From a virus, in IMG/VR virus record IMGVR_UViG_3300033388_000530, positions 1 through 23,239 of that record: a stretch of 23,239 nt of DNA; one strand, written 5' to 3'. The position numbers and the translations under genes were made by a program. This document shows positions 1 to 487 of the stretch, piece by piece (the first letter of the stretch is position 1; the number at the start of each line of letters is the position of its first letter). The notes beneath the pieces were generated by a model. It saw only the letters and a program-made list of their open reading frames with translations. It had not been told where the DNA came from and did not search any database.

Positions 1-31
1 GTAAATAGTCGTTTTAATGCCATTTATACAT

Positions 32-114
32 TGTTAGCTTCAATGACCTGTATACAGGTTGTTATTATGTTTTTTTGGTTGTAATGACTTGTATGTAGGT
101 TATTGCAGCTAACG
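32..114 (+). ncRNA. Long imperfect RNA hairpin (possible structured leader or small RNA)
   Basis: Bases 33-64 pair with 82-113 in an almost continuous stem of about 32 pairs. One pair is a true mismatch (U40 with C106). The remaining non-Watson-Crick pairs (45/101, 50/96, 51/95, 57/89, 60/86, 61/85) are all G-U wobbles when read as + strand RNA, and would be A-C mismatches in a - strand transcript. The U-rich loop is about 65-81. The outer pair 32/114 is also G-U. At DNA level the arms are two diverged direct copies of one block (about 43-64 and 84-104); the first contains a perfect 14-bp palindrome at 46-59. The element ends 36 bases before the first gene. It could be a leader, a processing site, a small RNA or a pair of operators. 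The pairing is seen directly; the function is unknown. Confidence 0.6.
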
Positions 115-149
115 CTACAACTAAACACAGTTATTAACGAATAAAAGAG

Positions 150-380
150 ATGAAGATGAAGATTAAAGAAGAGGATAAAGACCTTAATTATTGGAAAGAA
201 AACTGTAAAGATGATTATTTACACACTCCAATTAGTGTACTAAGGTATATTACAGAACTTGAAAAAGCCGTTAATAATGGTGGTTTAGATGATGTTAGTA
301 ACTGCGAGCATCATTACATGAGAGCTATTAATGCTACAAATAAAGATAATTACTGTATAAAATGCGGTAAAAAGTATTAG
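150..380 (+). CDS. Small zinc-ribbon-like protein, 76 aa
   Basis: I do not recognise a family. The charged, helical N-terminal half is followed by a possible metal site: C52-x-H54-H55 and C69-x2-C72-G. This spacing resembles a small zinc ribbon or zinc finger. No signal peptide or membrane segment is visible. ATG 150 is preceded by an A-rich stretch; a second ATG two codons later (156) is an alternative start. It lies between two predicted RNA structures and is the first gene of the window. Small zinc-binding phage proteins commonly bind nucleic acid or modify host machinery, but nothing here shows which. Existence of the gene is fairly likely; the function is unknown. Confidence 0.6.
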   Translation: MKMKIKEEDKDLNYWKENCKDDYLHTPISVLRYITELEKAVNNGGLDDVSNCEHHYMRAINATNKDNYCIKCGKKY

Positions 381-398
381 TAGTTGTTACTAATACCT

Positions 399-448
399 CT
401 ATAATTAAGCCTTGAGGCGGCTTCGACCATAGGGAGTTGCAATTATAG
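399..448 (+). ncRNA. Predicted compact three-way-junction RNA
   Basis: In the 107-base gap between the first two genes, three helices abut with almost no unpaired joining bases. The outer helix is 399-406 with 441-448 (8 perfect pairs). Helix two is 407-411 with 419-423 (5 pairs, 7-base loop). Helix three is 424-427 with 436-439 (4 pairs including one G-U, 8-base loop). C440 is the only junction base left over. Bases 397-402 could alternatively pair with 429-434, so the fold might be bistable. No poly-T follows, so it is not a simple terminator. It matches no tRNA, hammerhead or other ribozyme core that I know. The pairing is by eye and unsupported by alignment. Confidence 0.4.
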
Positions 449-487
449 TTTGTTAAATTTTGTGAAACCATTAAAAAGATATAACTT

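Follow-up and report, generated by a model that had tools for sequence, protein, structure and literature searches.

What is the long hairpin that lies close to the start of a 23,239-base virus record, upstream of its first gene, and why are its imperfect pairs so one-sided? The whole record, which we call the window, was analysed. A sequence-only reading of it had described a stem joining 33-64 to 82-113 with a single mismatch, in which the six other irregular pairs were G-U wobbles on the + strand. Counting the pairs bore this out: there are 25 Watson-Crick pairs, 6 G-U pairs (as + strand), no A-C pair and one mismatch (T40/C106). A 36-pair version, 33-68/78-113, contains 26 Watson-Crick pairs, 8 G-U, 0 A-C and 2 other mismatches, and our stem finder extends the hairpin to 37 pairs at 32-68/78-114 (26 Watson-Crick, 9 G-U, 2 mismatches) around a loop of 9 nt. 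Folding against shuffled controls had been proposed as a check. As RNA, the + strand of 25-125 folds at -38.9 kcal/mol (z -6.69, with 0/200 shuffles as good) and the - strand at -20.1 kcal/mol (z -2.49, 1/200 as good). The hairpin is the lowest-energy 100-nt segment of the window when both strands are scanned, and the sole stem in it to which the stem finder gives a score of 17 or more.

No T-run of the kind expected of an intrinsic terminator follows position 114 on the + strand or position 32 on the - strand. Rfam gave 0 families in the window at gathering score; its sub-threshold hits were weak, and five of the six resemble eukaryotic microRNA precursors in shape. The exact motif TAnnTTTG, which we take to be the Bacteroidota -7 motif, is absent from window 1-400 on either strand. 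A search for homologues of the hairpin found none. In the relatives L033-L037 the syntenic position, before the gene at 645, lacks one, and a comparable stem was found neither in the first 36 loci examined nor in 696,497 bases of L044-L123, where the longer stems are repeat arrays. One such array, L101 4700-5270, consists of dense AACTAATTTCT-like repeats that generate very long imperfect stems, on a contig that also has an attC-type site. Nine contigs selected for the motif spacing attC, short gap, TAACG contained no comparable hairpin cassette, and the same was true of five IMG/VR pattern hits (one from a pattern of an 18-base arm, four from a palindrome pattern). As a separate observation, L033-L036 carry strong G-rich folds on the - strand, alike between these relatives, some 1100-1500 bases before their counterpart of the gene at 645.

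The sequence to the left of the hairpin offers a context for it. By blastn, window 1-37 matches an intergenic stretch of the relative L034, and the two share, on the other strand, the motif TAACAA-stem-GGCATTAAAACGACC-stem-GTTA; since the matching stretch is intergenic, we no longer read 8-36 as the end of a gene lying to its left. The family pattern TAACAANN{4,16}GGCATTAAAACGA retrieved 81 IMG/VR stretches, and a slightly longer pattern retrieved 30 GTDB stretches, for the most part from Flavobacteriia. The IMG/VR matches L061 and L123 were judged to be chance and left out; they and the GenBank copy of phage P12002L were excluded from the stem set, whose 29 distinct stems entered a shuffle test. 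Across many sequence versions of the family the two arms, upstream and downstream, are complementary to each other. The 29 distinct 8+8 stems have a mean of 6.48 Watson-Crick pairs out of 8, compared with 5.29 +/- 0.16 after shuffling of partners (maximum of 1000 shuffles, 5.83). On inspection, the copy in the window, attC1, retains most of the stem pairs that are visible. The inverted outer boxes of R type (AAC...GTT) are represented by GTTA at 33-36, and the other box would lie beyond the contig start; the DNA fold of window 1-45, - strand, has a z of -0.7. The crossover box GTTAGCT fits the consensus G|TTRRRY loosely rather than strictly, so we name attC1 an attC-type site and not a proven attC; GTTAGC is frequent in the family.

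A further link runs through the Polaribacter phage P12002L. Window 2-37 has weak blastn similarity to it (E = 2). L053, a member of the family, hits the same spot at E 3e-15; two DNA methyltransferase genes flank this spot. The attC sites of P12002L are published, and two of them were tested with the integrase IntI1: in the accessible text of PMC9892861 that phage's attC2 recombined, while the junction test set its attC1 apart as the exception. The match of L053 to a phage with published attC sites indicates that the family is of attC type. Judged from its sequence, 1-38 is a truncated attC-type site whose outer box and full stem would lie beyond the start of the contig.

The hairpin begins where attC1 ends. 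It spans exactly GTTA..TAACG, from the GTTAGCT that closes attC1 to AGCTAAC plus G, and 33-113 has the form of a gene cassette: it separates two attC sites, the right-hand one diverged, and its own ends are complementary. Because its limits coincide exactly with the end of one attC-type site and the beginning of the following one, it would be the body of a cassette rather than a leader or free small RNA, two of the roles that had been suggested for it. We consider it probable that 33-113 makes up the whole body of an ORF-less integron-type cassette lying between attC1 (1-38) and a putative attC2 (110-298). The features are collected in Table 1.

Table 1. Features at the left end of the window (positions count from its first base).
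Feature	Position	Strand	Basis
Truncated attC-type site attC1, end part, cut by contig start; + strand reads (..)GTAAATAG-TCGTTTTAATG-CCATTTATAC-ATTGTTAGC	1-38		family pattern, weak blastn match
Hairpin, 81 nt, GTTAGCT...AGCTAAC; probable whole body of ORF-less cassette	33-113	+	
Left cassette end, R-type box GTTAGCT of attC1	33-39	+	
Perfect 14-bp palindrome ACCTGTATACAGGT in left arm	46-59		
ATG at usual leader distance, then 4 codons and stop (MFFWL*)	67-84	+	translation, leader distances
Diverged palindrome copy in right arm	87-100		
Right cassette end AGCTAAC, inverted copy of 33-39, start of putative attC2	107-113	+	
Putative attC2, diverged, long loop: TAACG 110-114, arms 123-139/269-285, TGTTAG 293-298	110-298	+	
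76-aa ORF; ~40 N-terminal aa common to many phage proteins, C-terminus variable	150-380	+	
Candidate next cassette body with C-terminal ORF codons, ends GTTAGTAAC / GTTACTAAT	294-394	+	
Weak candidate attC3: CTATAATT/AATTATAG stem, then TTTGTTA; start box TAATA, not TAACG	391-455	+	

In the orientation of the window, family sites read TAACG...TTGTTA, and an ORF usually begins 20-40 nt past the GTTA. A generic attC detector found 122 sites, against 5 in reversed sequence; on one viral contig (L069, 1-12942) 13 attC-type sites stand in a row in a single orientation. The intervals between sites begin with GTT and finish with AAC by construction. Over 44 such intervals the complementarity of the two cassette ends scored a mean of 8.66, compared with 4.97 +/- 0.28 for mismatched ends, with scores of 8 or more in 25/44 and a maximum of 25 over 28 pairs. 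Past the first 7 bases, duplex energy showed no clear difference (-9.5, against -8.9 +/- 0.5 for mismatched ends). Extended end complementarity thus belongs to some cassettes, not to all. At 81 nt, 33-113 is shorter than every one of the 44 intervals compared (shortest 148) and is the sole case of its kind here. In the leaders of phage cassettes in L044, L062, L064 and L072 we also noted a recurring TTTTTGAGCG..GGC motif.

To the right of the hairpin, the 17-nt stem of the putative attC2 contains 14 Watson-Crick pairs, 1 G-U and 2 mismatches. ORF 150-380 starts within its loop and has 48 codons ahead of the TGTTAG box; the generic detector missed this site, whose length lies outside the range searched. 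The same layout recurs around ORF relatives in L001, L008 and L009 with quite different stem sequences, and a stem as good was found in random windows of the same contig in 3/100 cases for the window, 3/100 for L001, 1/100 for L008 and 1/100 for L009. L007 is weaker: 53/100 controls were as good in a gapless stem search and 11/200 as a gapped duplex. Among the 16 ORF relatives tested together with the window, 12 other loci lack a long-loop attC. One ORF copy, that of L009, is preceded by a shorter GTTAG...CTAAC hairpin; no hairpin homologous to 33-113 was found upstream of the other relatives. ORF 150-380 has no match in Pfam or PHROG. Its first ~40 residues (window 150-273, NYWKENC...ELEK) recur in many phage proteins whose C-termini differ. 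The DNA fold of the candidate attC3 region is no better than that of shuffles on either strand.

We then asked of the attC stems what the one-sided wobbles of the hairpin might mean. The G-U to A-C ratio of 8:0 over its 36 pairs has a P of 0.004 if G-U is expected at a share of 0.5 and of 0.017 at 0.6; since the + strand of the window is G/T-rich throughout, with an expected G-U share of G-U plus A-C of about 0.59, this ratio, spotted post hoc on inspection, is by itself only moderately surprising. The same polarity appears elsewhere. Non-Watson-Crick pairs in the ends of 24 cassettes, scored in a strand-neutral way, comprised 12 G-U, 0 A-C and 19 others on the + strand. In attC stems, counted over distinct contexts with kinship ignored, G-U to A-C was 67:9 in viruses and 16:0 in bacterial genomes, against a G-U share of about 0.51-0.62 predicted from base composition. 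The cassette ends of the genomes had zero wobbles to count, so polarity in genomes refers to attC stems alone.

Gene direction separates two explanations of this bias. Relative to the TAACG...TTGTTA strand, the neighbouring gene in viruses was sense at 77 and antisense at 5 of 95 sites, while in genomes (mostly Flavobacteriia) it was antisense at 24 of 29, with 2 sense, 2 unclear and 1 at an edge; one site counted with the viruses, L167, is from a bacterial genome, which corrects the antisense split to 4 viral and 25 genomic. The reversal has a Fisher P of 5e-17, kinship among sites being ignored. Since the wobbles stay on the attC strand while genes in the genomes run opposite, polarity tracks the attC strand and not the transcript, which favours folding of single-stranded DNA over folding of RNA. 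Integrases prefer one strand of attC, as stated in PMC9892861 (section 3.4, part of the text consulted). The polarity of attC stems thus points to single-stranded DNA folding, and we infer the same for the hairpin at 33-113, whose one-sided wobbles more likely reflect such folding for cassette exchange than a regulatory RNA. The sequence-only reading had suggested selection for an RNA fold. Selection for a single-strand fold of the + strand, as opposed to a plain operator, stands; its assignment to RNA is probably wrong, given that polarity follows the attC strand.

Other accounts of the hairpin can be set against this evidence. A structured + strand RNA (a 5′ leader hairpin, an RNase III site or a small RNA) controlling the gene at 150 would explain the strong + strand fold, the G-U character of every wobble and the presence of a same-strand ORF downstream, and regulatory sequence is known in ORF-less cassettes elsewhere (PMC6557892 and PMC11014356, in the sections consulted). 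The same direction of polarity in the attC stems of genomes with genes on the opposite strand, the coincidence of the hairpin ends with cassette boundaries, the lack of a homologous hairpin before ORF relatives (bar the shorter one in L009) and the weak, sub-cut-off Rfam hits weigh against it, and we regard it as unlikely. A functionless relic, a cassette that lost its gene and kept its complementary ends, strikes us as unlikely too, if slightly less so. Complementary cassette ends are general, an ATG sits at the usual leader distance, and the hairpin has no ORF and is a unique case, all as a relic would have it; 8 G-U and 2 other irregular pairs among 36 with zero A-C suggest, modestly (P 0.004-0.017), that selection continues.

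The palindromes had raised the competing view of a protein-binding role. The 14-bp palindrome at 46-59 is indeed perfect and 87-100 is its diverged copy, with 3 mismatches, which could make the pair, lying 41 bp apart, a DNA operator for a regulator of phage or host origin. Matches in the window at 3 mismatches or fewer number 3 (1.1 expected), a recurrence not above chance; a degenerate pattern is absent from 36/37 loci, the lone matching locus being itself a copy of the window, and the five IMG/VR pattern hits lack a hairpin of this kind. An operator would need neither the outer 7-bp arms nor the wobble polarity, and the binding role, left unsupported, is very improbable. Least credible is a hydrophobic micropeptide as the gene of the cassette: in the frame of MFFWL* an open frame of 13 codons, MTCIQVVIMFFWL*, runs from 45 (45-84) and includes an ATG, but the frame is tiny and its start codon is buried in the stem. 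Neither frame is likely to be a gene.

With respect to attC, phage cassettes are oriented the other way round from those of the hosts. Among viral attC sites longer than 95 nt, 11/29 have a loop ATG whose frame crosses the crossover, compared with 0/8 in genomes, a difference that is not significant (P 0.08). The sites with such an ATG are in L002, L044, L046, L049, L054, L069 (3 sites), L098, L103 and L118. Their frames read through the crossover into the cassette over 64-127 codons, so that the attC would carry the N-terminus. We tentatively propose, as a picture with rather less than an even chance of being right, that Bacteroidota phages have 'attC-first' cassettes, with the host order reversed, in which the loop often encodes the start and the first 18-48 codons and recombination would swap the protein body behind a fixed N-terminus; 33-113 would then be a spacer cassette without a gene, preserved as a fold of single-stranded DNA.

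The record encodes terminase, portal and other head-and-packaging proteins (PHROG matches), and Pfam identifies a crAss-type muzzle protein; together these make the phage Crassvirales-like. One contig, L024, is identical to the window and starts at window 2087; that contig aside, the closest relatives share 69-79% of the terminase protein. Homology with relatives picks up again at window 458 or 486, where the cassette array would therefore end. Farther in, at about 1350-1425, tandem copies of CCTCACATCTAGTTCGTCTTCTCTAACGCTTGA lie behind an ORF that ends at 1256. The record, itself a fragment, has no match to TIGR02249 (integron integrase), and searches of 18 genomes and 13 virus records gave none over cut-off; sub-threshold matches occurred in 14/14 control genomes too and are little informative. 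On L170 1471-2274 (the phage contig of L049), a 267-aa tyrosine recombinase, below the integron-integrase cut-off, stands right behind two attC-type sites. The locus may be a CALIN, which requires two or more attC sites and no integrase: the record, a fragment, lacks a TIGR02249 match, and the sites come from our own detectors, not IntegronFinder. We read the locus as a putative small array of cassettes carried by a Crassvirales-like phage whose hosts would be of Bacteroidota type.

Neither phage attC sites nor ORF-less cassettes are new to the literature. Qi et al. 2023 (PMC9892861) described phage attC sites and CALINs, and attC1 shares its family with the P12002L site between DNA methyltransferase genes; further resemblances are an array in which no integrase was matched and a cargo rich in methyltransferases. 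Unlike theirs, in whose accessible text 'crass' has 0 occurrences, ours would lie in a Crassvirales-like phage, and that text offered no description of an ORF-less hairpin cassette or of start codons inside attC loops as seen here. The ORF-less integron cassettes of PMC6557892 and PMC11014356 are likewise gene-free between attC sites; in the sections consulted they are described as promoters, whereas 33-113 is almost all one inverted repeat. At the edge of the TJE1 CALIN, a hairpin with inverted GTTRRRY (PMC9892861, section 3.4) likewise places inverted GTT-type boxes beside a phage attC, but it is short and described there as a predicted terminator, while the hairpin here has 37 pairs and no U-run behind it. 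In the open PMC literature, as far as its texts were accessible, we saw none of the following described: an ORF-less cassette built as a single long inverted repeat, phage cassettes that run in reverse with respect to attC, and attC loops with start codons inside.

A mechanism can be sketched for the cassette reading of 33-113. From the position of genes in the genomes and the TAACAAT...CGTTA form, which we presume to resemble classical attC sites, the TAACG...TTGTTA strand would be the attC bottom strand, on which integron integrases act as a folded single strand. During a single-stranded DNA stage, in phage replication or entry, the hairpin arms would pair; in the excised circle they would flank attC and lengthen its stem. 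Selection for the single-strand fold would keep G-T wobbles and purge A-C mismatches, and, as the record has no integron-integrase match, recombination would be supplied in trans.

Read in this way, an apparent regulatory RNA becomes evidence of integron-type gene exchange in a Crassvirales-like phage. Wobble polarity that is independent of gene direction would provide a simple signature separating single-stranded DNA folds from RNA folds. It is also a testable claim that the cassettes of phages run in reverse with respect to attC and that some attC loops carry translation starts; with both, cassette shuffling could exchange the bodies of proteins and bring phages methyltransferases and further counter-defence genes.
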